From the NCBI GenBank assembly GCA_003117195.1, contig BDSI01000031.1:905501-969500 (forward strand): a stretch of 64,000 nt of DNA, in the 5' to 3' direction. This document shows, piece after piece, positions 7,801 to 47,700 of the stretch. The stretch comes from Eudorina sp. 2006-703-Eu-15 (Eukaryota > Chlorophyta > Chlorophyceae > Chlamydomonadales > Volvocaceae). The notes under the pieces were generated by a model. That model was not told the DNA's origin and did not search any database. It saw nothing but the letters and a program-made list of their open reading frames with translations. Position 1 is the stretch's first letter. Each line of letters opens with the position of its first letter. The position numbers and the translations under genes were made by a program.

Positions 7801-8617
7801 AGTCGTACATACACATACGTACGAATGGAATGAAGCCATCCAGCACAATCCATCATTTGTTTGCGACCGCGCGCGCACACATGCATGCGCGCACGGGCGC
7901 GCACATACATACAGCGATGGAGCGGCGGGCGGTCAGTGGCAGGCACGCACGTTTATTTGGAACAGACTACCGTATTCGGTTCGATCGTTGTGCGTGCCCG
8001 CAGGTATTCATGGCAAGCAGCGTTTGGGTGCGTGAGGCTGTGTTGAGCTGCAGCGGCCGGCTGATGGATGCCGTGTTTGTTTGTATGTACGTATGCGTGG
8101 TGTGATGCGGTCGTTTGTGTGTATTGAAGCCTGCTACGTATCTACGTACACAGCAAGCAAGTGATCTCTCGCCCTCCCCCCCCCCGCCACGTACTACACG
8201 TACCGCAATACGCGCCAATGGTGTCATTGCGGTTGGTGCCGTTCACCGTGGTGCTTGGGTTCAAATCCGTGATTGTGCAGTCCGCCAGGCGCGCTTCACT
8301 CCCAATGCAGTCCACATTGGCTGACAGCATGGAAACGGATGGGGCCGATACGCCGCCACCAAACTTGGACCCCGCATCAAGGACGGTGACGCCGCTGCTC
8401 CACCCCAACTGCCGGCAAACCACCAGGGCTTCCTGGGGACCGAAATAGGATGTGTCTGCATTGGACGAAGACATGCGCTGGAGAACGATCCACTGTCCGT
8501 TCCGGCAGAAGATGACCACTCCGCCCGCCGGGGAGCCGTCGGCAGGAGCGGCTGTGATGGTGACGCTGCCGGCGTCGCGCACTAGACGCAGATCGCCGTC
8601 CACACATTCCGACGGTG
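1424..8617 (-). CDS. Multi-SRCR-domain protein gene (partial), nine SRCR exons
   Basis: This gene encodes a protein built of scavenger receptor cysteine-rich domains, normally extracellular or membrane-anchored ligand-binding modules. Nine exons, read right to left, each encode one domain of about 131-140 residues: 8617-8204, 7737-7321, 6556-6143, 5743-5324, 4966-4559, 4149-3739, 3249-2857, 2485-2087 and 1843-1424. Every exon begins and ends in phase 1, with donors such as GTAAGT, GTACGT and GTGCGT. The hallmark CRQLGW is present in all nine. The domains follow an ordered 1-2-3 pattern repeated three times, summing to about 1,232 residues. No signal peptide exon, lectin domain or transmembrane exon was found, so the 5' end is missing from the model. 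The 3' end is either a read-through stop at about 1,380 or lies beyond. Volvocine algae are known to carry many SRCR proteins; the ligand of this one is unknown. Confidence 0.85.
2087..2485 (-). CDS. SRCR exon 8 (type 2, module C)
   Basis: Type-2 SRCR domain starting ESAGVEGQLRLVPQTGG, with CRQLGW, LACNGTEAYL, DECSH and LECRNG. Cysteines one and two are again missing (VEGQLRL, LQMFDTGHW). The acceptor is TTTCAG|AGTCGG and the donor G|GTGAGT. Confidence 0.83.
2857..3249 (-). CDS. SRCR exon 7 (type 1, module C)
   Basis: Type-1 SRCR domain (VCTDGELRLV, VFCKDGRWNVV, SCRQLGW, VSCSGTEARLEDC, VYCG), the shortest of the nine at 131 codons. The acceptor is GCAG|CACCAG and the donor G|GTAGGT. Confidence 0.83.
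3739..4149 (-). CDS. SRCR exon 6 (type 3, module B)
   Basis: Type-3 SRCR domain starting TECSAGELRLVNGSSSGG, then GILQICPAGIWATL, CRQLGW, FRCATGAETRL, SQC and LSCNG. Its first third (about 4,021-4,149) differs by only about two bases from the equivalent part of exon 9. The donor is G|GTGAGG. Confidence 0.84.
4559..4966 (-). CDS. SRCR exon 5 (type 2, module B)
   Basis: Type-2 SRCR domain starting ESAGVDGQLRLIPEPGG, with CRQLGW, FKCNGTEAHL, NEC and VECRNG. As in the other type-2 exons the first two cysteines are absent (VDGQLRL, LQMFTSGLW). The acceptor is CAAG|AGTCGG and the donor G|GTGCGT. Confidence 0.83.
5324..5743 (-). CDS. SRCR exon 4 (type 1, module B)
   Basis: Type-1 SRCR domain (QCTDGDVRLVRN, NFCRGGAWYVF, VCRQLGW, LSCSGTEARL, TSC, AYCG). 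The acceptor is TAG|TCGCTC and the donor G|GTGCGT. It is longer than its type-1 partners by two to nine codons. Confidence 0.84.
6143..6556 (-). CDS. SRCR exon 3 (type 3, module A)
   Basis: Type-3 SRCR domain starting IECTVGDLRLVNGSSSGG, with CRQIGW in place of CRQLGW, ending SCDG. It has six cysteines. The acceptor is TTCAG|CAATCG and the donor G|GTAAGT, phase 1-1. The NGSSSGG loop is shared with the other two type-3 exons. Confidence 0.84.
7321..7737 (-). CDS. SRCR exon 2 (type 2, module A)
   Basis: Type-2 SRCR domain beginning EPAGVEGQLRLIP. It keeps CRQLGW, the ISCNGTES cysteine, the next cysteine and the final LEC, but has no cysteine at the usual first and second positions (AGVEGQLRL, LLQVFRSGYW). 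The acceptor AAG|AGCC is non-CAG but matches its paralogues; the donor is A|GTAAGT. Confidence 0.82.
8204..8617 (-). CDS. SRCR exon 1 (type 1, module A)
   Basis: One SRCR domain with six cysteines (ECVDGDLRLV, IFCRNGQW, VCRQLGW, VDCIGSEARL, ADC, YCG). The acceptor is CAG before CACCGTCGG and the donor is G|GTACGT, phase 1 at both ends. It is the most 5' domain found. The intron before it should carry the link to an unseen first exon. Confidence 0.85.
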
Positions 8618-11600
8618 CTGACATGTGTGCAGCGAGGCGGAATGAAGGCACGCAAAGGACACGCAAGGGCGGCATGATGGGCGAGTGGGGAGGCAGGGGA
8701 CCAGGCGATGGCGATTACTTATATCCCATCACGCCTCCGCCTCGAGGCACAAGAAGCTCCCCTTCGGGCAGCCAGGTCGCCATCATGTCGCGCGCATATC
8801 ATGTGTGCGTACAGTTGTTTTATTGACCGCGAGGAAAGGGATGAATGATGTGTATGTACTGGGTGCAGTTAGGGATGTGGAGGCAGGATGCGCAGAGCCA
8901 CATATACACCCACGCATAATCCAGAAATTAGTGGCACAAGTGGCCCCATTCACCGCATTGGGGTGAAAATGTGGGGCGGCTGGATCGATCGACAAGCATT
9001 GACGCTGCGTGCTCTGCCTTTGTTTCGCCACGCAACACCACAGTACGACAGGCCGTGTACACCGACCATGCATATGCTCAAGTGATAGGTAAAGAACATG
9101 CTGCTTGTACCCGGATAATTTTTAGAGTTACGTTAAACTTAGCGTTCCGACATGCGACGGACAAGGACAGACCTGACGAGGTCTGCAGTACATTTCGCCG
9201 CCCAAGCCCTCCGAAGAGCTCCCCAAAAGGCAATCCAGCAGAAATACCTTCCGAAGCTGCAATAAAGATGAGGACATATGTTCAAATTCCTTATACTGGC
9301 ATGTTCCGAACAGCCGCTTGTAGTTCAGCTTCGGTATTGCTACACACCTGGACAAACAAGTGCGACTGTGAATCCCACTAGTAACTGTATGATTATGGCG
9401 CACAGAAAGCCCAAAGACGCACACTTAATGTTACTATCGCTAGGGTATCGAGTAACTAACAAAAGATGCCGAGGAAAGCGCATTCCTTTGAAAGGCTAAA
9501 CTCAAGGATCGTGAACAAAGTGCGCAAATATTGTATGTCATGTTATTGGTTGCCATTTCCTTAGCATTCCAACTGTCTCGGGGTGCGTACGGCTGACGGG
9601 ACACCATGACCGACGACGTTGTGATTGTTCCTTACTATCACCGAAACGAACATGGCATAACGTAAATAATATAGGTTATATTTCTCATCAATTGTTGGTA
9701 GGTTTTTAAAAAGGATTGCTATGCAGCAGTTGGTCATTTGGTAAGTTGGTAAGTGTACAACTAAATAATGAATGAATGATACATATGCTCTTTAAAATTT
9801 TATTCATCGGACGATAATTCACGAGAGCTTCTTATTGTCTAAAGGATTGAAATGAGTGTGTTGAATTCGTACTGCAGCTAGGGCTGGGCAGGCAAGAACG
9901 GCCCTGAACGACCACAGTAACATAATACGATGCAGGTTTTGTTGTGCTGAATCAACATTGCGCCCATATTGGCAGTGCGGAAGCTCGCTCGAAGTATCTT
10001 TACAGTCGTAACATGTCGGGTTCTGGTTGTGATTATCGGCTGCTATATGGAACATCCGATGAACCATTGGTATCAAATGCTGTATTGAATTACCGTTCTA
10101 CTGTTCGATTCTGCTTTGCCTTAACCAGAGTACAGCGTAGCATGGTCGACGCGCGCTTTTCATCACCCGCCGTTACACGTCTTGCACTACTCGGCATCCT
10201 TCGGCATATAGATTAATGTGCAGCCGTGTACAACTGAACTCATCAGATTTCCCAAAAATCCGCCGGAAGGCGCCGTTAGCCCTAGATGGATAGGGTCGCA
10301 AGCTCGGACAAGTACAGCACAAGCATCGAGGATCGTGAACAGTCTTGTGAACACTTGGATGCATCTAAGGTGCGTACAACATATCTGGGGCATCAGCGCC
10401 AGGGGGACCACTATTAGCGAAGGTGAAAAGGCGTCAAAAATATTTATCAGGGGGAAGACGTCACACAGCTAGCTAGCGGTAGAACGGGTGCGGGGTGTAT
10501 ATGCTTCGATGCGCTTGTGGGAGCCTGCCCGGTGCGCCGTATGTACATATACATGATGCATGGCGTCGTTCTGCTGTCACACTGTGCACAGTATATAGCG
10601 GAACGGTAGCACAGTACCTGGAGATGGTTACACGACCATAAATGCACATCCCTGGGTGCGGCGTTGGGCACGTGTCATATTGTTAATGATGGTACAGTGA
10701 ACCCAGCGGGTCATCCTCGGTGTCAGACGCAGATAGCCTCCTCACCCACACACTGCACAAACGAAACCGCGCCAACTCTGCACACCGGACAGGCTCCACA
10801 AGTTCACCCAAGCGCACCACGCACCCACTCTAACAGGGAACTGTAAGCTGGTACGGCAGTGCGCCGTACAGACGCTCACAATATAGGGAGCCCAAATGGG
10901 TTCCCAACCATCCGGTAAGCCTTTGCGTCTTACAGGAACTACGCTTCCCGTCCTGAGGACCAACCATGCATAGTGAAGGACAAAGCCCGCTCAGGGGGAG
11001 CTAGCCACCGGGGTGCCCTATTAGTGGACAACTACCACGGCCAAGACCGGCTGCCGTCTCCGTCTTATGCAAACATGTATACAAGGGTGCGTAGCCCCGT
11101 ACATGAGCAACAACCCGTATCCGTCGAATCAAGATGCGCAGCTGCAAACACGAACGCGCAAGTGCATTAAACCAGCGCTCGCGTCATGTAGCCAACAAAT
11201 CCGAACGAATCAAGTAACGAAGTCAATTGTAAATTAAGCGATCCCGTGTTGCCGATTCACGTCCACATGTTGCTCACATGCACTACTGGTCCCATCCTGA
11301 GCGGCTCACATACACACGCAATAAACACGGCTTTCCCACACACACGCAACACGGCTTTCCCACAATAGACCTACGTATTTCCAGCGTTCTTTCGCATTTT
11401 CGTGTGTGCTTGATAAGGATTTACATGTATGCCGCCACACACACCGCACGCAGATGCCCCCAGAAGCGCCCGAAACTCGCTCGCTGAGCTGCTTGGTCAT
11501 TCGGTTTGATGAAAGCCTACCGCCTACGGCTACCCGGGAGAAAGACAGACCGACATTGGGATGTGCGTAATGAAATCCAAGCAATCGAATCACAGTCCAG

Positions 11601-33669: not shown

Positions 33670-35211
33670 TTGCCGCTGGGGAGGTGGCCTGTTCACCAGG
33701 CGGTCTGGGTTCTCTCGTTCCTCGAAGTCTGTTACCCAGGGGGAAATGAAGATGGGCATCGCGGTCTGCTGTTGCTGCCGGAATATCGTGTCACCATTCC
33801 CATGCAACCGGTCATAAGCAACACGAACAAAACAGCGCAGCTGGCCGTTGCCTGTGTTAGCGCGACCACGGACAGCTCGTCTCCCTCTGGTTCCGATCTG
33901 GGGGGGGAACCAGCCAACGCTGCCAGCATGCCCGTCGAGCCCATGCACTGCTGTTCCACGGGGGATGCCGCACCGCCACCAGCAGCATCTCCCTCACCAG
34001 GCGGAGCTCAGCCATCCAAGTGCGTAACGTCTCTGCCAAGGCATATTGCCAGCTGGGGCATGTGGAAGGGCGTCCTCACGTACCTCCTCACCAGCCTGCT
34101 CACGCTGATCTCCACGTCCACCGCATTCTGTTGCGCCGCGGCAAAGCCGGTGGGGATGGTGCTGGATCGGCTGATCGAGTCAGCGTGCATGGCGACTGCC
34201 TCGTTCCCTGTTACACCACCGCTTTCGACCCGGTCATTCGTCGAGCGCAAGGGTAAGCGCAAGCGGGCTCGTTTGGGGCGCCGTCAGAAGAGTGTTAGCA
34301 GTCCCCCACCCGCTCGGCGGACCTGGTTCAGCCTTGCTTCCTTTGCACTCGTCACTTGTTTGCTGTTCACACTCGCTGCGGGTGCTGGTGCCATGCACGG
34401 CGCCGTGCTTGACAGTGACCTTGCATCTATATCTTCCAATGTCGTGACTTCCGGGGGCATTCTCTTGCAACACGGGGGTGTTCGTCTGCCTGAGTACGGC
34501 GGTTTGGGATATGATCCTTGGGCAGAGACAGATCCTAGGGACTATGCGCGATGGGAGACGCGGGGTCACGCCATGGCTATGGCCAGTGTGGGGTCTTTCA
34601 CCCCTGAGGGAAATTCGGCCGCCGCTGCCTATCAGCGCTACGTGAAGGACAGCGATGGGGGATGGATTTGGGGAAATAGTTCCTTGTTTGAGCCCAGTGC
34701 GTCACACGCCTTGCGCGAGGCCGTTCGCATGCGCAAGGGCAAGGCTTTTGCGTACAGCATGGAGGAGCTGCCCGGTTACTCGGGTGAGCAGGGGCCGTTC
34801 ACCTTAGATTTGGACACCGAACGCCCCATCGTGCAACCGCCGCGCCGGTACTCGCCGAAGGAAAAGGAGGTTATCATGCAGAAAACGGCGGAGCTGGTCA
34901 AGGCGGGCATAGTTCTTGAGCATACGGGTCCCACGGTGTGCGCTGTCAATCCTGTGATCGCCGCCAAGAAGGATCCTGACACGGGCCTGTGGACGGATCA
35001 CCGTATGGCGCAAGACTACCGACCGGTGAACAAGCATACCCGATCTGACAGGTATGGACTCCACCGCCCGGAGGACATTTTCCATCAGTGCGCTAAGGCG
35101 AAAGTTTTCTCTAAGTTGGACCTTAGGCAGGGCTTTCTGCAGATCCCTATTGCCAAGCAGGACCAGCCCAAAACTGCGTACTGGATGGGTAATAAGTTGA
35201 TGATGTACGGC
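33670..35211 (+). CDS. Outer element pol, 5' half: hydrophobic N-terminal region and RT fingers/palm
   Basis: The open frame follows a TGA at 33,664; the first ATG in frame is at about 33,802. The first 350 or so residues are not gag-like or protease-like. They include two hydrophobic segments (GVLTYLLTSLLTLISTSTAF and FSLASFALVTCLLFTLAAGA) separated by a basic stretch (ERKGKRKRARLGRRQK). From about residue 390 the RT begins: PRRYSPKEKEVI, then DYRPVNKHT, and KVFSKLDLRQGFLQIPI with the first catalytic aspartate. The frame reaches MMYG and is cut at 35,211 by the nested LTR. The role of the hydrophobic region is unknown. Confidence 0.8.
35207..35211. repeat. Target site duplication, left copy
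   Basis: ACGGC directly before the TG of the 5' LTR. It is the last part of the TAC-GGC codons in the RT of the outer element. Confidence 0.92.
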
Positions 35212-35607
35212 TGTAACGCGGATGTTACGGACTTAAGAAATACTTAAGGACGTAGGCATCGCGACACAAAGCCACAGAGCTATCGGCCTGGGAAGCCGTA
35301 TACGGTTATGACGTATACGGGAAGGACCGTAGGCCTTGCCTATTTAGGATCACCTTCAAGACACCTTCCACTACGGGGCGTACGTCGTGGTAGGGTTTAT
35401 GGTATCACGCGCTACATGCCGTAGTACGGCACTAGGCCTGAGCGAGGGCCTAGGCGCATAAAGGCTCGCACGGGTAGGGCGGGTGCCGTCGCTATTACGC
35501 CTAGCGACGTAGGATCGTTTCCTCACTACGCCAAGACTACTAGACTCTGATCCTACGCTTCCGCAGTGGTTACACTTGTACGCTAAGTACCCACACGCGT
35601 CGTTACA
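35212..35607 (+). repeat. Chromovirus 5' LTR
   Basis: 396 bp, TG..CA ends (TGTAACGCGG ... CGTTACA). It differs from the 3' LTR by a G/A, a GT/TG dinucleotide and a C/A change. Confidence 0.95.
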
Positions 35608-38600
35608 GTGGTATCGAGGGTTTCTGTTTAAGACATACCCTGTGGGAACTCCGTTGTTTACGGGCCCAGGGAAAGATGGACAACGGGTGCAGCTACCGGG
35701 AATTCGTTGGCCGGTGCAGCTTTGGTACGACCCGCCCAGGGAACCAGCGAAGTTGAGTACTCTGTGCGTTGGGCGCAGTCATACGATGCAGTTCGATGCT
35801 AGGATTGCCGATTCTCCAGCACGAACTCTGGTAGACAGCGGTGCGGATTGCAACGGAACTGCCCGTGGCTTTATTACGTTGTCCCTTGCACGACGCTTGT
35901 CTTTGCTTGTACAGCAATCAGTTACGGTCACGGTACGGCTTGCAGATGGCCAATCCTCTCGGTTACACGGTCAGGTCCGTGCTAGATTACGGATTGGAAA
36001 TCATACCGAGTGGGTCACACTGTTGGTGCTGCCCGAAGGGGTGCCGGGAATCGACGTAATCCTGAGTTCAGATTGGCTACACGCCCGCCAGGCACGTATG
36101 GATTACAAGCGTAACAGGGTGATCATTTGCCACAAAGGACGTGATGTCAAACTCAAGCCGTCACACGCAGCGCGGGAAGGCTTTGATCCGCTGAGCGGCA
36201 AACCGCTGCTTAGTACCGCAACTGTTCAGGTTACCGGCGATAATGATATAGGGCTCCTTTCTGCTAAACAAGCGGCAAAGGCCCTTGCACGGGGAGCGCG
36301 CAGTTATCTAATGCTGGTGCGCGCAGAGAGCCAACCGTCCGTCGAGCGCACAGCGCTCGCAGCAACCGTCGCTGGCCGAGCCGAAAGTGTCGGTGACAAC
36401 CTGGTTCCGGAGCAGGAAATACAGGCGCTATTACATGAATTTCAGGACGTGTTTGAAGAGCTCAAAGGCCTACCGCCTGACCGCGGTACCGGTCACACTA
36501 TTCCCCTCGTGCCGAATGCGGAACCGCCTGCAAAACGGATGTATAGGCTTTCGCCTAAAGAAATGGAGGAAGTACGGAAACAAGTCACCGATCTTCTGGC
36601 GAAAGGTTATATTGAGCCTTCCAATTCCCCGTACGGGGCGCCGGTACTTTTCGTCCAGAAAGCAAGCGGAGAGCTGCGTATGTGCCTCGACTATCGCGCT
36701 CTGAACAAAATTACGGTGAAAAGGCGGTACCCAATGCCCAACATCACGGAAATTTTTGACACGCTACAAGGTGCACAAGTGTTTACATCACTCGACCTCC
36801 AGCAAGGTTATTATCAGATCCGCATATCTCCGGAAGATATTCCCAAAACGGCATTTATCGCCCCGGGAATGGGTCAGTTCGCTTTTCGGGTACTTTGTTT
36901 CGGACTGACAAATGCGCCTGCGACTTTCCAATCCGTGATGAATGGGATTTTTGCTAAGTACATTGGGAAATTTGTCCTAGTGTATTTGGATGACATTTTG
37001 GTGTTTAGTAAGACACCTGGCGAGCACATACAACACCTCCGTACTGTGTTGTCGTTGCTGCGCGAGCACCAGTTCAAGGCTAAGCTGTCAAAATGCGACT
37101 TCAATAAATCGGAATTGAAGTTCCTCGGGCATATCGTGAGCCGCGAGGGTCTGAAAGTTGATGCCACTAAGGTCGCGACGGTGCGTGATTGGCCCGTCCC
37201 CAAGGACGTTCGTAAGCTCCGCGAATTCCTTGGATTGGCAAATTACTTCAGACGCTTTATCCAGGGGTACTCGAGCTTAGCAGCTCCCTTGACAGCTCTG
37301 ACCGGGTCGAAAGTGCCCTTCGACTGGTCGCCTCGGTGCCAAGCTGCATTCGAGGGCATTAAGACAGCCTTGATCAATGCACCTGTCCTCGCCCTACCCC
37401 AGCTGGATAAATCCTTTGAGGTCTGGTCCGACGCATCGATATACGGTACGGGAGCCGTCCTTATGCAGGACGGACACCCAGTAGCCTACACAAGCCAGAA
37501 GTTCACCAGTGCTGAACACAACTACACAACCACGGATCAGGAATGCCTCGGAGTCATTCACGCTTTGACGGAATGGCGCTGTTACCTAGAGGGTTTTGAG
37601 TTCACTCTGGTTACGGACCACCACCCCTTGGTTTATTTGCATGAGCAGCGCGGAGCTGGGTTGCTGTCTCGCAGACAGGCACGCTGGATGGAATACCTTC
37701 AGCGGTTCAACGGTATGAAATGGGAATACCGCCCAGGGCGTATCAACGTGACTGACCCCCTCAGTCGGATCCATGACACGGTGCTAACGGTGCTTGCCGG
37801 GGCCCTAACGGTTGGCGACCTTGGCAAACGGATACGTGGAGGGTATGCTGGAGACCCTTGGTTCTCAGGAAGAAAACCGAAGGCAGCACGGATGCAGTTA
37901 AAAAGACGGGAAGATGGGTTCTGGTACAAGGGAGATCAGATAGTCGTACCCAATGACCCCGCGCTGCGCACGTCAATTATTCAGGAGTACCATGACACTC
38001 CGTTCAGTGGGCACCGTGGTGCAAATCGCACCCAGGAAGCAATCGCGCGAACGTTCTGGTGGCCTGGCCTCCACACAGACGTACAACGATACGTTGCAGC
38101 TTGCCCTTCGTGCCAGCAAAACAAGCCCCTAAACAGGAAGCCGGGGGGCCTACTGCGTCCTCTCCCGATTCCACAGGGAGTGTGGGAAAGCGTGTCCCTG
38201 GATCTGATCACACAGCTGCCAACCACCAAAAACGGGCATGACGCTGTCGTTGTGTTTGTGGACCGGCTCAGCAAGATGACCCACTTTGCTGCCACGCACA
38301 CCAGCGCCACGGCGGAAGACTTGGCACGCCTATTTGTGTCCACTGTCTTCAAGCAACACGGACTACCCAGAAACTTAGTCTCAGACCGCGATCCACGGTT
38401 CACGAGCAAATTCTGGAAGGAAGTAACGCGCCTGCTTGGGACTCATTGCTATATGAGTACGGCGTTTCATCCACAAACAGATGGCCAGACCGAGCGGATG
38501 AACCGACTCCTAGAGGAGACACTCAGGCACTACATTGGTCCCACACATGATGATTGGGAAGACCACCTGCCGCTTGTGGAGTTCGCGATAAACAATGCTT

Positions 38601-39430
38601 GGCAGGAGTCTATTGGCACCACCCCGTTCTTATTGAACGGTGGGAGGCAGCCGCGTACCCCGGCTGACCTTGGGTTACAAAGTAATGTGCCTGGCGCTGT
38701 ACGATTCGAGTCCAGCCTCCGTGAACGACTCGCGAGAGCAAAGGCGTGCCTGCAAGTCGCGCAGGAACATCAGAAGAAGCATGCCGACAAGCGACGGAAA
38801 GCTGTCGCCTTCTCTGAGGGTCAAGAGGTGTTGCTCAATACGAAGAACATTACGTTCAAGTCCCCTGGGACGCGCAAGCTGATGCCGCGTTGGATCGGTC
38901 CGTACCGTATAGAGAAGATGGTTGGATCCGCGGCCGCCAAACCCAGTTTGCCAGTAGACATGAAGATACACCCAGTGTTCCACGTTTCGTTGCTGAAACC
39001 TTACAAGCGGGATGGCCGGACTCCGCCACCACCGGCCTTCACAATCGGTGAAAATGAGTACTGGATGGTAGATGATATCGTGGATCACCGAGATGTCAGT
39101 GCCGGTCGGGGCCGATACAGGCGCGAGTATTTTGTCAAATGGCAGGGCTTCCCACCTTCTGAAAACAGTTGGGAGCCTGACGACTCGCTACGGGAGTCCG
39201 CCCCGGTGGAACAGCTGGTGGAAGCATACGAAGCCCGCCTGCCTGAGGCGAGCCGCAAGGAGCATTGTCATGCTGCGCTCAAGGCGCAAAAACAGGAAAA
39301 CCGGGCCAGGGAAGTGGCCCCTCCGCCTCAACAGGAGAAGCAAGATGCATCGGCCGTTCCGCAGCCGCCCCAGGGTGCTGATGACACTCGGCGGAACTCA
39401 CGACGGCTGCTGGGTAAACAACAACGGTAA
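35608..39430 (+). CDS. Chromovirus pol: protease, RT, RNase H, integrase, chromodomain
   Basis: The open frame enters from inside the 5' LTR (35,576); the first ATG in frame is 35,786. An aspartic protease begins with LVDSGAD at about 35,834. RT carries DYRALNKIT, SLDLQQGYYQI and the catalytic YLDD at 36,983-36,994. RNase H has VWSDASIYGTGAVL and TDHHPLVYL. Integrase has the H2C2 zinc domain (HRGANRTQEAI, CPSCQQNK), then LDLITQL, SDRDPRFTS and HPQTDGQTERMN as the DDE core. A chromodomain near 39,060-39,240 (VDDIVDHRD, YFVKWQGFPPSENSWEP) ends the protein; in chromoviruses this targets integration to methylated histone H3. No frameshift or stop is seen. Gag is missing. Confidence 0.93.
35609..35620 (+). 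other. Probable primer-binding site of the chromovirus
   Basis: TGGTATCGAGGG lies one base after the 5' LTR and resembles the TGGTATCAGAGC site used by many plant chromoviruses, which pairs with the 3' end of initiator tRNA-Met. The second half diverges from that consensus. Confidence 0.65.
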
Positions 39431-39473
39431 ATGGCTGATGGCTGATGACCCCTGCTCTCGGGACGTTCGCTTC

Positions 39474-39486
39474 AGAGGGGGGGGAG
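39474..39486 (+). other. Polypurine tract of the chromovirus
   Basis: AGAGGGGGGGGAG directly abuts the 3' LTR, the standard place for the plus-strand primer of LTR retrotransposons. Confidence 0.88.
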
Positions 39487-39882
39487 TGTAACGCGGATGT
39501 TACGGACTTAAGAAATACTTAAGGACGTAGGCATCGCGACACAAAGCCACAGAGCTATCGGCCTAGGAAGCCGTATACGGTTATGACGTATACGGGAAGG
39601 ACCGTAGGCCTTGCCTATTTAGGATCACCTTCAAGACACCTTCCACTACGGGGCGTACGTCGTGGTAGGGTTTATGGTATCACGCGCTACATGCCGTAGT
39701 ACGGCACTAGGCCTGAGCGAGGGCCTAGGCGCATAAAGGCTCGCACGGGTAGGGCGGGTGCCGTCGCTATTACGCCTAGCGACTGAGGATCGTTTCCTCA
39801 CTACGCCAAGACTACTAGACTCTGATCCTACGCTTCCGCAGTGGTTACACTTGTACGCTAAGTACCAACACGCGTCGTTACA
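39487..39882 (+). repeat. Chromovirus 3' LTR
   Basis: 396 bp, about 99% identical to the 5' LTR by direct comparison. It is followed directly by the second ACGGC target duplication and the resumed RT frame of the outer element. Confidence 0.95.
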
Positions 39883-39887
39883 ACGGC
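39883..39887. repeat. Target site duplication, right copy
   Basis: ACGGC directly after the CA end of the 3' LTR, followed by CGTATGCCGTACGGG, where the outer RT frame resumes. Confidence 0.92.
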
Positions 39888-42800
39888 CGTATGCCGTACG
39901 GGTTGAAAAATGCGTCTGCCAAGTTTCAACGGGTCATGGATTACGAGTTGGCTAAGGCCGGCTTAGACCACTGCGCCCGTGCGTACATTGACGATGTTTT
40001 AATCTTCAGCAATTCCCCCGAGGAACATGTGCAGCATGTCGCTGCTGTCCTCGATGCCCTTCACTCATGTGGTCTTCGTGCGCACCCGGATAAATCCATT
40101 TTCGGAGCTGATGTCATTGAGTATTTGGGTCACAACCTGAGCGCGGACGGAATCAGCCCTCACCACGCCAAGGTGTCCGCGATCCTGAACCTTCCCACTC
40201 CTCGCAATGTGTCTGAGCTTCGCGCTCACTTGGGTTTCATCAATTACTACCGGTGCTACATCCCCAACATGAGCCTGCTCACCACCGATCTCACGGTGCT
40301 TCTCAAGAAGGATCAGCCATGGGTGTGGGGTCCCGCACAGGATGCAGCTTTCACCGCGCTCAAGTCCGTATTCTCCAAGGAGGGGTTGATTCTTCGCCCT
40401 ATCGACTACTCCAAGCCCCTCATCTTGCACACCGACTTCTCCAACAAGGGGTTGGGTGCCGTGCTGGGTCAGCTGGACGACCAGGGCAACGAATACATGT
40501 GCGCCTGCATCAGCAGATCACTCAATAAGCATGAGCGGCATTACAGCAGCTACAAAGGTGAGATGCTCGCGGCCGTGTGGGCAGTGAAAATGTTTAGACA
40601 TCACTTGTTGGGTGGTCCGAAGTTCAGCCTGGTCACTGATCATCAACCTCTCACGTACCTCATGAGTGCGGACAGGCTCACGGGCCAGTACGCCCGGTTT
40701 GCCCTTGTACTGCAAGAATACGACTTTGAGGTTATCCATCGCCCGGGTCTCAAGCATCAAAATGCGGATGTGTTGTCGCGACATCCCGAGGAGACGACCG
40801 CTGATAATACCGGTGCCCGGCTGGATGAGGAGGATTTGGCCGGCGTTCGGCGTGTGTCTGCTGCCCTGTCGCATGCATCTCAGGAGTGCACAGCAGTGCG
40901 CACCGCACTGTCTTCCCACGTGCCGCACGCTAAGTTTTCCGACGACTTTTGCTTTGTCCCTGACCAGTTTCTGTCGGGTCATCTGGGCCTTCCGTCTGAC
41001 GTGATAGACATGCCTCCATCTAAGGAGTCTGACTTGGTCAGGGAGCGTCGTGACGCCGTTCATGCCTCGGCGGTCAAGTGGGTCCGTTCAGCTGCGCGCG
41101 CCAATCCCGAGCTTTTCGCAAATACTTCACATCCTACGTCCCGCGCATTCTTTTCTCAAGCCTTGGGTAAGGGAGTCACTGTTTACGAGCCCTTGGGGGG
41201 CATGTGTGCTGGTCTGGAGGCCCTGCTTCGGTGCGGCGTCCGGGTGAATCGCTACATCTCGTCTGAACCAGATCCAGTTGCCGCCCAAATCGTGTCTGCG
41301 CGCTTGGATCGGTTGAGCGCTGAATACCCCGCGCAGTTCGCCCCTGACTCCTACAAGCGTGTGTGGTTGGACCTTCCTCTTGATCCCCGCAAAGTAACGG
41401 AGGAATCACTCATGGCCACTGGAGCTTGTGACGGCTCCCAGTGGGTGGTGTTTGCGAGCTGGTGCTGGCACGACGTAGGTAAGGAACCGGGCTCCCTTAC
41501 ACCCGAGTCCTGCGTCGTGGATCACGTCGTTCGCATTATTCAGACTTTGCAGCGCGTCCAGCGGCGTTCGCCCGCTTATTTCCTTGTCTGTGAGCAGCCT
41601 CGTGAGTCCTGGAAGAACGCATGCGCTGCCCAGTCACGAGTCACGAGTGCGTTCGGTGACCCCATCACGTTTGATGCAGTGCAATTTGGCGCACTTGCGC
41701 ATCGCGTATCCACGCATTGGACAAACCTCTCACCGCCAAAGCCGCTTGCCGCGGTGATCTCTGGGGTGCAGCCGCCCACCACGGCCGTGCTCCAGGATGT
41801 GCTCTCCCCAGGGCGCACTGTGCGTCTCGCGCAAGCGCCTGATCCCCCGGGCACGTACCCCCGGAACAAAGTGGGAGAGCCTTTGTGCGTGGCTCCCAGC
41901 CTGAGTCGGCCGGAGCTGCAGCGCCAATATGATCTCGTGTTCGATCCCTGTGAGCCGAAATTGGGCAGTCTAACAGTCCTTGAGTGTGCCCGGGCCATGG
42001 GCTACCCTGATGACGCCACAGAGGCTCGCGAGGTAAGCGAGGCTCAGAAGCGCCGCATTCTGGGTCTTGCGCCCGACTTGGCCTCCACCGTTGGTGTGTT
42101 GTCTTTGTGCCGAGTTCTTTCCAACACGTCACTGCATGAGGTCGTTGCTGCGTGTGCTCTGAGTGACTCGTCCCCAGCTGTGCCTGAGCCGTCTCATGGC
42201 CTGGCCTATCCCCTGTTTCCCTGCGAGCCTGTTTCCCCTTGGCCCACGGTCTTCGCCGCGGCTGTCCAAGCGGAGCAGGAGGACTCTTCGGGGTCCCAGG
42301 GACGATGGCCGGATATCTGGGATGATGAAGCATCTATGCATTTCCTTCGTACGGGCACGCACGTGTCCAACCTGCCCCCGTCCGAGCAGAGGCGTGTCAC
42401 GCGGAGGGTTCGTGCCTACCGCATGCAAGGGGGTGAGTTGTACCGCGTGTTCAACGACTCCAAAGCACGTCTGGTTCCCAAGCCTTCTGATCGTGTGGAA
42501 CTGATCAAACTCACGCACGAGGAGACTGGCCATTTCGGGGTGCGTCGTACTGTCGCGCTGCTGCTTACCCGTCACTGGTGGCATGGCGTCTACCGAGACG
42601 TAGTCAACTTTGTCAAACACTGTGAGCATTGTGATCGTGTTAATACCTCGTTTTCAGCCCCGTCGCCTGACCTGCATCCATTGCCGGTACAGGGCTTGTT
42701 CTATCGCTGGGGCGTGGATCTTTGTGGCCCGTTCACTCGCACCAATTCGGGGAATGTCTACGTGATGATTTGTGTAGAGCATTTCTCTAAGTACACAGTT

Positions 42801-43202
42801 TTTGTTCCGTTGCCTGACAAGGAGGCCGATCGCACGGCTTCCGCGTTCTTGCACCATATCCTAGGGCGCTACGGTGCCTGCGCCGAGGTCTGCACCGACC
42901 AGGGTAGTGAGTGGAAGGGTGCCTTTTCGTTGCTCTTGCTGAATTCGCTGATAGATCATCGTGAGACGTCACCCAACCACCCGCAGGCCAATGGCTTGGC
43001 GGAACGGGTGGTCCAGACCTGCAAAAGGGCGCTCCGTCGCATGGTGCGGCAGCGGGCTGAAGGCAGGGATTGGGATGAATTGTTACCGTACGTCATGTTA
43101 GGTTATAACTGTTCCGTGCATCAGTCCACGGGGTTCAGCCCTTATCATGCATGGTGTAGAGCCCACCATTCCTCCTGCGATCAAACCCCGATTCGCGGAT
43201 AA
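39888..43202 (+). CDS. Outer element pol, 3' half: RT, RNase H, DNA methyltransferase-like, integrase
   Basis: Numbered from the ATG at 39,891. RT resumes with MPYGLKNASAKFQ and the catalytic AYIDDVLIF. RNase H spans roughly 176-300 (LHTDFSNKGLGAVLG, SLVTDHQPLTYL). A C5-methyltransferase-like domain occupies about 429-745. The integrase zinc domain follows (His876 region, HCEHC), then the DDE core with Asp943 (VDLCGP), Asp1003 (CTDQGSEW) and Glu1038 (QANGLAERV). The frame ends at 43,202 just after TGFSPYH, where the conserved integrase sequence continues in another frame. Apart from the nested insertion and this shift there are no internal stops over more than 1,100 codons. Confidence 0.88.
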   Translation, partial: RMPYGLKNASAKFQRVMDYELAKAGLDHCARAYIDDVLIFSNSPEEHVQHVAAVLDALHSCGLRAHPDKSIFGADVIEYLGHNLSADGISPHHAKVSAILNLPTPRNVSELRAHLGFINYYRCYIPNMSLLTTDLTVLLKKDQPWVWGPAQDAAFTALKSVFSKEGLILRPIDYSKPLILHTDFSNKGLGAVLGQLDDQGNEYMCACISRSLNKHERHYSSYKGEMLAAVWAVKMFRHHLLGGPKFSLVTDHQPLTYLMSADRLTGQYARFALVLQEYDFEVIHRPGLKHQNADVLSRHPEETTADNTGARLDEEDLAGVRRVSAALSHASQECTAVRTALSSHVPHAKFSDDFCFVPDQFLSGHLGLPSDVIDMPPSKESDLVRERRDAVHASAVKWVRSAARANPELFANTSHPTSRAFFSQALGKGVTVYEPLGGMCAGLEALLRCGVRVNRYISSEPDPVAAQIVSARLDRLSAEYPAQFAPDSYKRVWLDLPLDPRKVTEESLMATGACDGSQWVVFASWCWHDVGKEPGSLTPESCVVDHVVRIIQTLQRVQRRSPAYFLVCEQPRESWKNACAAQSRVTSAFGDPITFDAVQFGALAHRVSTHWTNLSPPKPLAAVISGVQPPTTAVLQDVLSPGRTVRLAQAPDPPGTYPRNKVGEPLCVAPSLSRPELQRQYDLVFDPCEPKLGSLTVLECARAMGYPDDATEAREVSEAQKRRILGLAPDLASTVGVLSLCRVLSNTSLHEVVAACALSDSSPAVPEPSHGLAYPLFPCEPVSPWPTVFAAAVQAEQEDSSGSQGRWPDIWDDEASMHFLRTGTHVSNLPPSEQRRVTRRVRAYRMQGGELYRVFNDSKARLVPKPSDRVELIKLTHEETGHFGVRRTVALLLTRHWWHGVYRDVVNFVKHCEHCDRVNTSFSAPSPDLHPLPVQGLFYRWGVDLCGPFTRTNSGNVYVMICVEHFSKYTVFVPLPDKEADRTASAFLHHILGRYGACAEVCTDQGSEWKGAFSLLLLNSLIDHRETSPNHPQANGLAERVVQTCKRALRRMVRQRAEGRDWDELLPYVMLGYNCSVHQSTGFSPYHAWCRAHHSSCDQTPIRG
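41175..42130 (+). other. C5 cytosine methyltransferase-like domain inside pol
   Basis: The order of DNMT motifs is recognisable. Motif I-like VYEPLGGMCAGLEALL is followed by YISSEPDPVAAQ with the expected acidic residue. A motif IV-like segment VFASWCWHDVG keeps a cysteine (residue 525) but has Trp instead of the usual Pro before it. A motif VI-like LVCEQPRESW keeps Glu (568) but reads EQP instead of ENV. A motif VIII-like AHRVSTHWTNL corresponds to AHRARYFWGNL in DNMT3-type enzymes, and LTVLECARAMGYPDD resembles the GFPDD segment before motif X. Homology to DNMTs is an inference from motif order and spacing. Activity is uncertain because of the changed motifs IV and VI. DNMT-carrying retrotransposons have been reported in some algae and dinoflagellates. 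Confidence 0.75.
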
Positions 43203-44673
43203 CATCTCCTTCGACAACCCTGAGCTAGCCGCCTCATCGCTTCTCTCACGAGGGGAGGCCATGCGGCAGCGCATCTCCATTGCTGGGGATAACCTGCTGA
43301 TCGCGCAGCACAGGGACACCCTTCGGTATGCTGCTCTTCGTGGGGGTGGCTACCATCCAAAAATGCGCGAGTTCGAAGTTGGGGACTATGTCTACTACCG
43401 CAATACTACTTCTCAGACGACGCTGGACTCCGCCGCCAGGCCCACTATTCTGCGGGTCATTGAGGTGCGGCCCACCGGTGTTTTGGTTCTTCAGGGTCAG
43501 AACGGGTTGACACTCAAATCTCACGTAAAGGATTGTGCTCCTTGCCACCTGCCCATTCGGGATGAGACTGTGGATCCACGTCTTGCTAAACCCTCTGCTT
43601 TGCTCCCTTGTGAAGTGTGCCGATCCCCGTCCGGTGACGAGTGGATGTTGCTCTGCGATGGCTGCGGGAAGGGCTGGCACACGTACTGTCTTACTCCCCC
43701 GTTGTGTCACATCCCCGAGGGCACCTGGGTGTGCCCCGAGTGCGTCGCTCAAGGTGTCACTCCCCAGCAGATTGATGCCAGGCCTCTTGCCAAGGTGCCT
43801 GTTCCCGATGTATCCCCCAAGCCTGCGCCTGAGCCCCCCTCGTACCTAAAGCATCTGCAAGGTGCCAGGGTGCTTCGCGCAGGGTCCGGGATGGGTGCGC
43901 AAGGTGCTGTGTCCAGCATTGCCACTTACGTAGGCCTTCAGGGCCGCACTCATTTGTTTGACGTCGTGTATCAGAATGGCGCCAGCGAAATGGTCACGGT
44001 ACGACAGCTGCGCACTATGCTTGCCCCCACTAGTCCACGCCCAACACGTGTTCTTCGCGCCTCAGCGGCGGTGACCTCCGTCCAGTCAGGGGATTGGAGC
44101 TTGGAATCTGGGGGGGCGGTAGCCGCTGCACTCTCTATGGCCATGCCTGGGGATCACTCCGCGTCCAAGGTTGCACTCATCTCCAATGCGCTGTCCAGCA
44201 GTTTCACCGAGTCCAGCGTGCCCAGCGAGCATGTCGATGTGTTGAAGTCGGCGTTGGATCTGGGCATGGTGGGGGAGGTCGTTTGCCCTTGGGAGGTCTC
44301 GCCGACGGTGCGGTCGGTTTTGATGTCGCATGGTGTCCGCATCATGAAAGGTAAGTCTGCCGATCCTAAGGGGCCGCTGGTGCCGTCGTTTTATGAGTCA
44401 GTGCAGCAGCAGGTGTCCGCCGTCCAGTCTGTGTTCTTGTCTGCTTCCGGTCATGTGCTTGATCTGGCCTTGCCAGGGGCAGTCCGTTTCACGCAAAGTT
44501 TCGTGGTGGCGCGCGTCCCTGTGTCATATATCGCTACGGCGGATGAGTTGCGCATGCGCTGGTTGAAGTCGTTGCAGCGGCAGGGTCGTTTGCTTATGCT
44601 GCACTGCCCCCTGTTCCATGTGGGTAATCATTTTCGCGTCGCCGTTGGTCAAGCAGCTGATCGTGAAAGATAG
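43147..44673 (+). CDS. Outer element pol, integrase C-terminus with PHD finger
   Basis: This frame overlaps the previous one and is shifted by +1. It continues the integrase (MHGVEPTIPPAIK, then FEVGDYVYYRN, typical of the integrase C-terminal SH3-like part). A PHD zinc finger at 43,609-43,743 has the Cys4-His-Cys3 pattern (CEVC, CDGC, WHTYC, VCPEC). A segment at about 43,860-44,030 (GARVLRAGSGMGAQG, HLFDVVYQNGASEMVTV, LRTML) looks like a Tudor-type fold. The last 200 residues are unrecognised. PHD and Tudor domains read histone tails, so by analogy with chromodomains of chromoviruses they may guide integration. Confidence 0.82.
   Translation: MHGVEPTIPPAIKPRFADNISFDNPELAASSLLSRGEAMRQRISIAGDNLLIAQHRDTLRYAALRGGGYHPKMREFEVGDYVYYRNTTSQTTLDSAARPTILRVIEVRPTGVLVLQGQNGLTLKSHVKDCAPCHLPIRDETVDPRLAKPSALLPCEVCRSPSGDEWMLLCDGCGKGWHTYCLTPPLCHIPEGTWVCPECVAQGVTPQQIDARPLAKVPVPDVSPKPAPEPPSYLKHLQGARVLRAGSGMGAQGAVSSIATYVGLQGRTHLFDVVYQNGASEMVTVRQLRTMLAPTSPRPTRVLRASAAVTSVQSGDWSLESGGAVAAALSMAMPGDHSASKVALISNALSSSFTESSVPSEHVDVLKSALDLGMVGEVVCPWEVSPTVRSVLMSHGVRIMKGKSADPKGPLVPSFYESVQQQVSAVQSVFLSASGHVLDLALPGAVRFTQSFVVARVPVSYIATADELRMRWLKSLQRQGRLLMLHCPLFHVGNHFRVAVGQAADRER
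43609..43743 (+). other. PHD finger
   Basis: Cys4-His-Cys3 zinc finger: CEVC, CDGC, H in WHTYC, and CPEC, with the usual Trp two residues before the last Cys pair (TWVCPEC). PHD fingers commonly bind histone H3 tails. Which modification this one reads cannot be told from the sequence. Confidence 0.9.
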
Positions 44674-44766
44674 CGGTTTGGTGGAAGATTTGGTTTAAAG
44701 TTCGTGCCTCGTGGCTTAGTCGCCGCGGATCACCCTGCATGCATCGGGTGACCGCTTGGGGGGGGA

Positions 44767-47700
44767 GTCTCCCCTAGGCACTTATTACGTCAGTAGAGCA
44801 GTCATGCGGCCTGACAGCTGTCACGCCGTTTGGGTGTCATCGTCATTTTACTGCGCAGCGAGCAGCAGTTACCTAATTCGGATTTATGTTGGTTAGTTTG
44901 TGGCATTAGCCCACCGTTTTGTCGCGAGTGAGGTGTTCCGTCGCGATGCGTTATGGCGCGCGTTGTAACCGCCGCCCAGTCGGTAGCCGGCCCGTAGGTG
45001 TGAGGAATCGAGCGGGAAAGAGTGATCGTTCGATTCGTGAGTTGGGATCAGGTAGCAACCGTGAATTGCTTTGCGTTGTTTATTCCGTTGCGTATATCTT
45101 TGCGTCTTATTTGCGTGTGTATTGGAGCGCCGCGTTGCGGTAAGACTCCAGTCGGCCTTACGAACTTGAGAGGCGTTCGAACCCACGAGGTCGTACGTCT
45201 GCGTTTGCGCTTATTAGCCAAAAGCGTGCTGGAAAGCATCGCTTTTCGGCTATGTCTGGATGATTGTAAGCGTCCTCTGAGCTAGACTAAAGGCCCTGTG
45301 CATTTCGGTCGCACAAGTATTTTGCTCCTGATCACATCACCACTCACATTGGCATCTTTTACCGGCAGCTCAGCGCGTGGGAACTCGCGATCCTCACGCT
45401 CTGTTGTAACAGCCGGCGCGGTGAGAAGGGGACTTACAGCTTTCTGCTTTGCAGCGCTGTGCGAGCGCACGTGGTGTGCCTTCGCAACAGCTCTTCATCG
45501 TCGGAGCTTGTAATCGTCCGTTCCCACCTCCATCCCCTTTTAACACCGCATCCCGGGAAAGCATGCGCGAAGAAGAAAAGACTCCTCAGCGCATGCGCGC
45601 ACGTTGGCTGTTCCATTCAAACAAGTCTGCATCAACACAAGATCAGAAATAACATGCCATCGTGGAGGCAGCAGAAACGCTGTTGTAGGTTCGCGACACC
45701 GGAGGCAAGGCCGAAGGTAGGATCAGCTGGCTGGTCCGTTGCAGAAGCGACGCCGCGCAGCTGTCCATAACGCTGATGTAAGCACTGCGCGTGCAAATGA
45801 TGACAATGGAACAAGGGCTCGGTCCAGGAGATGAATGATGTGATGAACGACCTTACATGTCTCTTCCGCTAGGCCAGGTCCATAACCTAACGAAAGGGGC
45901 CTACTAGTTGCTCATCGGCTATTGCCGAAGAGCAAATCGATACAAAGCACCAAGGCAAAGCCTCGACCTAAATCACAAGACAAACAAGTACGACACTCTA
46001 CCATCAGAGATGGTCACGAAACCAAAGGAAACGGACAACCGAATCACACAACAACTCACAATAACCGCAAATAACCGAATTGGAGCAGTAAACTGACGGG
46101 TGCAGTCAATCGGCGTGACACGGCTGGCTGCCTTTGGCGGAACAGGGGCCTGCAGGCTTCTGCATTATCTCTTTCGAGGCCCAAATGACTACCTGCTGCC
46201 ACTGGGCGGCGGTAACCGTAGTTGGGCTGTTTAGGTGTTACTTGGGCTTGGGGGTAATCTCCTCTGCCGTCTAGGTGCGCTATCAACGAAAAACACCGCC
46301 CACAGCAGTTGGCTGTGTCAGCAACCCGGCCCCTGCTGCTTGAGGTGGCTGTGCACGACTCCAAGCAAGCTGACAGGCAAGTCAACGGGCCGGTCGCTGC
46401 CTCACCGATGCGAGAATTAGTGCGGCGCCGCGGGATGAGGTCACTCCTGGTGATCACGAACCTGCTCGCGAATCCCCGCCCCGGGCTGTATTTCTGTGGC
46501 TTCGGCCAAGGGCATCGCGTCGGGCGCGCGTCCCAACATCGCCCCGACCCCGGCCGCGTGATTGCATCCCATCCAGCCATCGGGAAACTCCTGCATGCAT
46601 GCATGCTTGAGCCCACAGCCCCGCCCGCAGATTCCTGATATTGCTCTGTGCCTCGACTTTGGGTCCTTGACTAAGTTAGCAGCTTTGTACCGCCCCTACT
46701 TCGTCGCTCTAACCTTCCGCCCCCAGCCGCCGTGCGGCGCCCCCCCCCCCCAAAAGCCCAGGTCCTGCGCTTCGGTCTCTTGCTTGCCTTCGTTCTGTTT
46801 GATTAAGCGGTATCATGCTGATCCTCCATACATGCATGTGCTGTATTCTCTTTTATGTAGGCCCGATATGTTTTGGAAGTCGCACTAACGTACAGCCATA
46901 AGCCAAGACACATCATAACCTACTGACAATCACAGCAAATCTCAAAAGTCCTGATGAGCAGATCACAACCGCCATCCGCTCTTCGCACAAACGTAGTAGA
47001 AAACCTCCAACCACATGTAACCACCTCTAATCAACTGGCTCCGCCTTCGTTGAGCCTCAGAACAATAAGCGTAATCTGCGACAATTATCTTTCAATAAAA
47101 ATTACAACTGTCGCACGCGCTGGTCGTGTGGTCATACGGTACTGCTGTCGAGTTATGTGCCCGTCCTAGCTTGCTGTTTAGGCGCTCGATTCGTGGTACT
47201 GCTAGAGCTTCCGGGTAGCTTGGGACCATTATAAGACTAATCATGTATGCATGCTTGTTTTTGTTCATCGGCTGGGGTTCATAGGGACAAGCTACCTGGC
47301 AGTGGTCGGAACTCTGTATGTTCTCTGTTCGCAGCCCGTATCCATCGGCTTGCTGATTCTCTGTCTTTGTCACATCCAAATTGGATTGAAGGACTCCATC
47401 GCATCATTCACCGCAAGGGCGGGTCCGCACATGGATGGGGCAAATGCACCCGAACACACATTTCACAGACTGGGTTCCGTTGAGCCGTAACGGGTAGCTA
47501 GTTCTGCAAAAAGCGCGGTTGTAGGGGAAAACTATCCTCCTGGCCCAACTAACGGCACCCTGACAAATACGCACCAACAGAGTTACAGGGCCCCACCAGT
47601 GGAGTTCCTGCATGTGGTTCCGTCCCCTCGTGGAACTCGGTAGGGGCCATTCCAACCTATTTTCAGGGCGTCGGGGGGAGTCCTGCATTGTGCAGGGCCT

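Follow-up and report, generated by a model that had tools for sequence, protein, structure and literature searches.

Introduction

Cytosine DNA methyltransferases (DNMTs) have been described in dinoflagellate LINE and DIRS retrotransposons and in Klebsormidium gypsy elements, in each case with the key residues conserved, as set out in part of PMC5890265. The same part of that paper reports CG methylation for SymbioDIRS and suggests that a DNMT carried by a retrotransposon serves to methylate the cDNA of that element (PMC5890265). Green-algal terms were looked for in its main text and none was found. An excerpt of PMC12344493 refers to DNMT3 in streptophyte and dinoflagellate retrotransposons, and to a group named 'ChloroDNMT' that comprises chlorophytes and charophytes and is often accompanied by PWWP. 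Among surveyed plant-lineage algae, DNMT3/DRM homologues are assigned to a red alga and a charophyte only in the relevant excerpt of PMC9861306, which cites Ma et al. 2017.

A Ty3/gypsy element was analyzed in a window of 64,000 nucleotides (the whole stretch of DNA under study). Its pol carries, between RNase H and integrase, a homologue of DNMT3-type C5-methyltransferases (C5-MTases) in which the catalytic residues have been replaced, and the motifs that replaced them are conserved among related copies.

Results

Architecture of the outer element

The open reading frame at 39819-43202 encodes, as determined by Pfam, the C-terminus of reverse transcriptase (RT) and RNase H, followed by a long additional segment and then by integrase H2C2 and rve, and so shows the RT - RNase H - integrase succession by which Ty3/gypsy elements are recognized (Table 1). 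The rve match of 28.3 bits fell under the Pfam cut-off of 32.6 bits, and the N-terminal part of pol, on the other side of a nested insertion, gave a partial RVT_1 match that was likewise under the cut-off. The outer element is classed as a Ty3/gypsy retrotransposon, and its host is probably a green alga. An earlier interpretation of the letters alone, henceforth referred to as the sequence-only reading, had placed motifs in DNMT order within the extra segment between RNase H and integrase of such a pol; both the motif order and the pol context were indeed observed.

The reading frame of pol is shifted near 43145, between high-scoring segment pairs at 39888-43145 and 43141-44634. The LTRs of the nested element, 396 nt each (35212-35607 and 39487-39882), differ by four mismatches and are flanked by a 5-bp target duplication, ACGGC; the near-identical LTRs and the duplication identify a recent insertion into an older outer element. 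No LTR pair of the outer element was found, the interval from 28 to 48 kb holding no repeat pair of at least 60 nt beyond the LTRs of the nested element. The copy in the window is thus nested, frame-shifted and probably 5'-truncated. Its probable 3' LTR was assigned tentatively from another genomic copy, L054, in which the first 50 nt of the segment are repeated directly after the LTR end, at the boundary of the retrieved sequence. In the reverse complement of L054 these positions are 8160-8209 and 8951-9000, with the probable LTR start occurring again after the LTR end in a tandem-LTR-like arrangement. A further copy, L053, contains an 89-nt exact direct repeat (7522-7610 and 7820-7908) directly 3' of the pol end, where the match to the window stops. 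Elsewhere in the window, an open reading frame on the minus strand at 1383-2579 contains two SRCR (scavenger receptor cysteine-rich) stretches (PF00530, E 1.6e-9).

Table 1 Features of the outer element, its nested insertion and the altered methyltransferase domain, in window positions.
Feature	Position	Strand	Basis
Outer pol, N-terminal part, into RT start, 5' of nested insertion	34408..35208	+	tblastn with Pleodorina P0002 residues 1-266, 73% identity
Nested chromodomain Ty3/gypsy element, interrupting outer pol	35212..39882	+	LTR pair; pol with chromodomain
Outer pol, C-terminal RT and RNase H	39888..40721	+	RVT_1 and RT_RNaseH matches
DNMT3-like C5-methyltransferase domain with altered active site (putative pseudo-DNMT)	41172..42128	+	AlphaFold, Foldseek, family alignment
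Motif IV region, WCWHDVGK	41460..41483	+	Family alignment
Motif VI region, VCEQPR	41586..41603	+	Val and Cys in the Glu-Asn columns
Motif VIII region, HRVSTHWTNL	41700..41729	+	Second Arg of AHRxR is Ser (41709-41711)
Outer pol, integrase zinc-binding and core domains	42483..42983	+	Integrase_H2C2 1.9e-15; rve 2.2e-6
PHD finger of outer pol, 3' of frame break	43609..43743	+	PF00628, E 7e-10
Probable 3' LTR of outer element (tentative)	44766..45554	+	Inferred from copy L054

Identity of the extra domain

Searched by itself, the window domain gave no Pfam match at E<=1, so that the PF00145 profile by which a C5-methyltransferase might have been recognized directly returned nothing; the nearest scores were E 0.19 for TIGR00675 and E 0.12 for DNMT3A in the PDB, and in a protein search the isolated domain retrieved just one short relative. 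The family was recovered by searching with the whole pol plus region instead. This protein search gave ten relatives, including proteins of Cymbomonas tetramitiformis and a Pleodorina starrii protein (P0002, 62% identity) that is the closest named relative and makes a volvocine host plausible. A second protein search with the Cymbomonas domain gave 57 relatives, some of them labelled Scenedesmus sp. or Haematococcus lacustris. Relatives of the domain come from Cymbomonas, Scenedesmus, Haematococcus, Pleodorina, metagenomes and the genome of the window itself. One gypsy pol of the DNMT-bearing family (P0041) is labelled as a Minisyncoccia bacterium MAG and is probably a mis-binned eukaryotic contig.

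The AlphaFold model of window positions 41055-42179, built on an input alignment of mostly intact relatives, has a mean pLDDT of 91.5 and a pTM of 0.91. Foldseek returned 123 matches at E<=0.001. The best 50 of the 123 are all DNMT3 entries, with a best E of 1e-11, a TM by target of at most 0.78, a TM by query of 0.51-0.59 and identities of 13-18%; the TM by query indicates that, in these best 50 of 123, the structural matches cover the window domain in part only. The least confident inner stretch of the model (residues 141-150, mean pLDDT 63) lies at the expected place of the catalytic loop.

Sequence profiles gave a second connection. A profile of lineage A, the branch to which the window domain belongs, matched a profile of the Cymbomonas relatives at an hhalign E of 2.6e-42 over 360 columns. 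Cymbomonas protein P0008 in turn matched PF00145 at 2.2e-9 (37.6 bits, above the cut-off of 22), and the best PDB sequence matches of its domain were DNMT3C (3e-6), DNMT3B (7e-5) and DNMT3A (8e-5), with M.HhaI at 0.05. Among the four relatives scanned, P0056 reached 13.7 bits with PF00145 (E 0.042, under the cut-off of 22), and P0002 and P0003 gave no PF00145 match at E<=0.1. Because intermediate relatives bridge it to PF00145 and DNMT3, the window domain can be assigned to the C5-MTase family. A search of the same genome gave 111 match rows, a lower bound in which fragments are counted, and these rows together with the homologues elsewhere show that the resemblance is not due to chance. Judged by sequence profiles and a predicted Rossmann-type MTase fold, the extra domain is a homologue of DNMT3-type C5-methyltransferases. 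The C5-methyltransferase homology put forward in the sequence-only reading is borne out by the profile link to the PF00145-positive family and by the DNMT3-like model, whose match to DNMT3 structures is significant.

Related elements in other organisms

By Pfam, the gypsy elements of Cymbomonas, Scenedesmus and Haematococcus (P0008, P0036 and P0056) have the same pol order, PHD finger and domain as the window element. They differ from it at the active site, where motif IV reads GFPCQDL, GWPCQDL or GWECQDL and is accompanied by EN in motif VI. The form GWECQDL, with Glu in place of the Pro before the catalytic Cys, was observed in P0003, P0056, P0058 and others (20 of the 39 rows of the alignment described below), and P0032 has GWSCEDLS. 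Pro before Cys is paired with ENV in 14 of 15 rows and Glu before Cys with ENT, ENA or ENS in 18 of 20. Judging from this pairing, Glu-Cys with ENT/ENA/ENS may represent a second, coupled active-site variant of C5-MTases.

Replacement of the catalytic residues

The active site was examined in an alignment of 39 rows (the window domain and 38 of 64 database proteins), the one also used for the structural model. Column 138, which corresponds to the catalytic Cys, contains C in 36 of the 39 rows and W in three. In the window this column is filled by the Trp codon at 41466-41468. The Cys that the sequence-only reading had taken to be the retained motif IV residue is encoded one column away (41463-41465), in the Pro/Glu column, where the other rows contain Glu (20), Pro (15) or Ser (1). 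The register of motif IV is firm, since the Asp after the motif (column 140) is D in 39/39 rows and the alignment is free of inserted columns from window residue 131 to 141. The motif VI Glu, also described as kept, was not found in place: columns 178 and 179 are E and N in 36/39 rows and V and C in the remaining three, in a register less secure than the one for motif IV, because the rows vary in length on either side, after residues 173 and 194. Column 219 contains the second Arg of motif VIII in 36/39 rows and Ser in three. The three rows with W, V, C and S are the window, P0001 and Pleodorina P0002. The loop that follows motif IV is 3 residues shorter in the window than in 36/39 rows, and the SAM-binding motif I of the window, YEPLGGMCAGLE, aligns with that of the intact relatives.

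The active site is therefore unusual, as had been proposed, with residues of motifs IV, VI and VIII replaced. As aligned here, the window domain appears to lack the motif IV Cys and the motif VI Glu of active C5-MTases while keeping the motif I sequence. The suggestion that the element methylates its own copies depended on retention of that Cys and Glu, and it is left unsupported by their loss.

A domain that is still an enzyme could be imagined if Cys137 (one position upstream) and Glu180 (two positions downstream) formed a shifted, working active site, which would be close to what the sequence-only reading had assumed. Both residues adjoin the lost positions, lineage A has conserved the new motifs and retained the SAM motif I sequence, and the register of motif VI is not fully firm. 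Such a site, however, would require two shifts in opposite directions in addition to the loss of the motif VIII Arg, and would have to function beside the shortened loop; moreover, C, E and N occupy fixed columns in 36/36 of the other rows. We consider a shifted active site quite improbable.

Copies and lineages in the same genome

When the genome was searched with the P0003 domain, 92 matches were obtained, and the P0008 domain yielded 82, mostly at the same places as the 111 match rows. Copies were read at 51 places (L003-L052 and L080), with several weak match places left out. Motif IV was readable at 47 of the 51; L009, L032, L049 and L050 do not show the motif. A canonical motif IV, [FW][PES]C[QE]D[LVF][SG], occurred at none of the 47 readable places, which fall into lineages A (28), B (7), C (5), D (2), E (4) and F (1).

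In lineage A, five representatives (three genomic lineages, P0001 and P0002) share identical WCWHDVGK and VCEQPR motifs, and single copies depart from them by one residue each, namely L013 (WCWQDVG) and L015 (CEQARESW). In the other lineages, motif IV, the catalytic loop or motif VI has been lost in differing ways. The catalytic loop is deleted in lineages B, C, E and F, with Ser in the Cys column in B; copies L037-L039, L042-L046, L048 and L080 make up C, E and F. Lineage D (L040 and L041) has a Cys in register (ATLRCPE) together with a lost motif VI Glu and a degraded motif I. The motif I sequence is kept in A, B and E (as GGLASGL in E), altered in F (EGICPGL) and degraded in C as well as D. 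Over the fetched 6 kb, pol is open in lineage C (a frame of 1787 aa) and in lineage D (1999 aa), and the fetched copies of B and E contain frame breaks.

Lineages A and B were joined at a support of 100 in trees of RT and of RT plus integrase (RT+IN) rooted on Cymbomonas. The RT tree placed A+B, C+E and D apart, but a single clade of A-E was not rejected (p-AU 0.113 for RT and 0.516 for RT+IN). The MTase tree groups A-E with a support of 88, which is under the starred level and carries a long-branch warning. The catalytic site may thus have been lost between one and three times across A-E, as far as these trees allow.

Selection and divergence

Synonymous divergence (dS) calculated with the Biopython NG86 and YN00 methods was often saturated or undefined, and raw pN/pS with bootstrap was used instead. 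For the pairs of A1, A2 and A3, pN/pS of the MTase domain was 0.140 (bootstrap 0.101-0.177), 0.368 (0.309-0.428) and 0.332 (0.273-0.394), at a pS of 0.74-0.83, which is near saturation. The corresponding values were 0.062-0.114 for RT/RNase H and 0.070-0.211 for the part towards integrase, making the MTase domain the least conserved part of pol in these pairs. Within the codons of SWCWHDVGK and VCEQPRE, solely synonymous differences were found among A1, A2 and A3. Among recent pairs, for which NG86 dN/dS values are based on few changes, the MTase domain gave 0.68 (L006-L008) and 0.08 (L010-L011); a B, a C and an E pair gave 0.23, 0.54 and 0.22, and the lineage D pair gave 0.73 over the whole fragment. 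Of the features by which DNMT-bearing retrotransposons are recognized, a DNMT homologue in the coding region and purifying selection were both observed, and conserved key functional residues were absent from the window domain.

The MTase distance was also expressed relative to the RT+IN distance, as medians binned by RT+IN distance over pairs that are not independent. In the bin 0.6-1.2 the ratio was 1.04 for intact pairs (n=587) and 1.54 for A versus intact (n=144); in the bin 0.3-0.6 it was 1.26 for intact pairs (n=12) and 3.57 for A-B (n=4); in the bin 0.1-0.3 it was 2.34 for intact pairs (n=21) and 2.80 for A-A (n=5); and in the bin 0.02-0.1 it was 1.43 for intact pairs (n=9) and 3.65 for A-A (n=1). 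The raised ratio on the A-B split and in one close A pair indicates that relaxed constraint accounts for part of the pattern. The medians can be read as a burst of change on the A/B stem with constraint restored afterwards, but this is suggestive only, because the pairs are non-independent and the closest A pair runs counter to it.

These data bear on whether the domain is a decaying leftover after loss of function, kept only since pol must stay in frame. Decay would be consistent with a domain that evolves faster than RT and integrase, with the degraded motif I of C and D and with the loop deletions of B, C, E and F. It accords poorly with a pN/pS well below 1 at near-saturated synonymous sites, with altered motifs that are identical in five representatives, and with a ratio within A that is close to that of intact pairs in the 0.1-0.3 bin, although those pairs are not independent. 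Decay is accordingly judged rather unlikely.

DNMT loci of the host genome

A search of the genome with PF00145, which works exon by exon and may miss further DNMTs, identified two loci, L001 and L002. L001 reads GGPPCQGYSGMNRF and LLENV, and L002 reads TPPCQP and LLENV; by their signatures we take them to be DNMT1-like and DNMT2-like, respectively. The presence of such loci, with PCQ and ENV, would suit a domain that acts as an anti-silencing decoy by binding new cDNA, a host DNMT or SAM and blocking methylation of new copies. Inactive DNMT3 homologues are known to act as cofactors of active ones, and lineages A and B retain the SAM motif I sequence. In C and D, however, that sequence is degraded, and a decoy is in our estimation unlikely.

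Discussion

The catalytic Cys is required for the covalent step of known C5-MTases, and the most likely reading of the lineage-A domain is consequently a pseudo-DNMT kept for binding. In this reading, to which we attach somewhat better than even confidence, the fold and motif I have been kept, the catalytic residues replaced and the domain retained as a binding protein. The identity of the new motifs in five representatives, despite near-saturated synonymous sites, points to a maintained pseudo-DNMT and not to a self-methylating enzyme. The domain is, on this evidence from conservation, probably retained for a job other than methyl transfer.

In the explanation that we favour, the element belongs to a Ty3/gypsy lineage of chlorophytes whose pol has a DNMT3-type domain placed between RNase H and integrase, with a PHD finger following the latter. 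In lineage A the Cys, the motif VI Glu-Asn and the second motif VIII Arg have been swapped for a new residue set that has since been conserved, and the domain would no longer methylate cytosine by the normal covalent mechanism. It would most likely help the RT/integrase complex to bind nucleic acid or chromatin, in the manner of an inactive partner such as DNMT3L or DNMT3B3 and not as an enzyme. Candidate binding partners are the cDNA of the element, the integration complex and chromatin, and the presence of a PHD finger in the same polyprotein would fit a chromatin role. More tentatively, a captured DNMT3 could have become a DNMT3L-like regulatory pseudoenzyme with a new WCWHDVGK/VCEQPR site, one that binds target DNA or chromatin or disturbs host methylation during integration; this is possible but doubtful.

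The readable copies of one genome all lack a canonical site, while the enzymes of related elements in different green algae still look active. A branch without the catalytic residues but with the fold and a new conserved motif, beside intact relatives, would allow a direct test of whether the elements need methylation or mere binding. Dispersal of a DNMT3-like domain among chlorophytes by a retroelement would also be relevant to how DNMT3 evolved in green algae, and the Glu-for-Pro motif IV is a second unusual active site worth testing.

The sequence-only reading had regarded both the placement within pol and the active-site variant as possibly new. The former was anticipated by KnitGypsy-Dnmt3, in which a DNMT in a gypsy pol is already described (in part of PMC5890265), whereas a chlorophyte gypsy family and a rebuilt active site appear new. 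Among the matches listed in a search of the open-access literature, no title was recognized on a chlorophyte gypsy DNMT or on a catalytically dead retrotransposon DNMT, and neither was found in the portions covered of PMC9033089, PMC12477816, PMC6338049 and PMC12730594. Since this scope is the open-access literature, the novelty is provisional.

KnitGypsy-Dnmt3 of Klebsormidium nitens, as described in part of PMC5890265, has a DNMT3-type domain in a gypsy pol polyprotein under purifying selection, as does the window family. It differs, in a comparison made by description, in that its key residues are reported conserved, its host is a charophyte and its repeats have a DIRS-like layout (same part of PMC5890265). 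No Klebsormidium label was present among the named matches of the protein searches with the pol region and the Cymbomonas domain. SymbioDIRS-Dnmt3 of dinoflagellates likewise has a DNMT3 domain inside a retrotransposon pol, but it belongs to a DIRS element with a tyrosine recombinase, keeps the key residues and is reported to have CG methylation (PMC5890265, in part).

The predicted fold of the window domain is similar to that of DNMT3A, DNMT3B and DNMT3L. These are regulatory genes of the host in which an ADD domain precedes the MTase, and DNMT3L is catalytically dead; the window domain, in contrast, is located in a retrotransposon pol in which a PHD finger follows the integrase.
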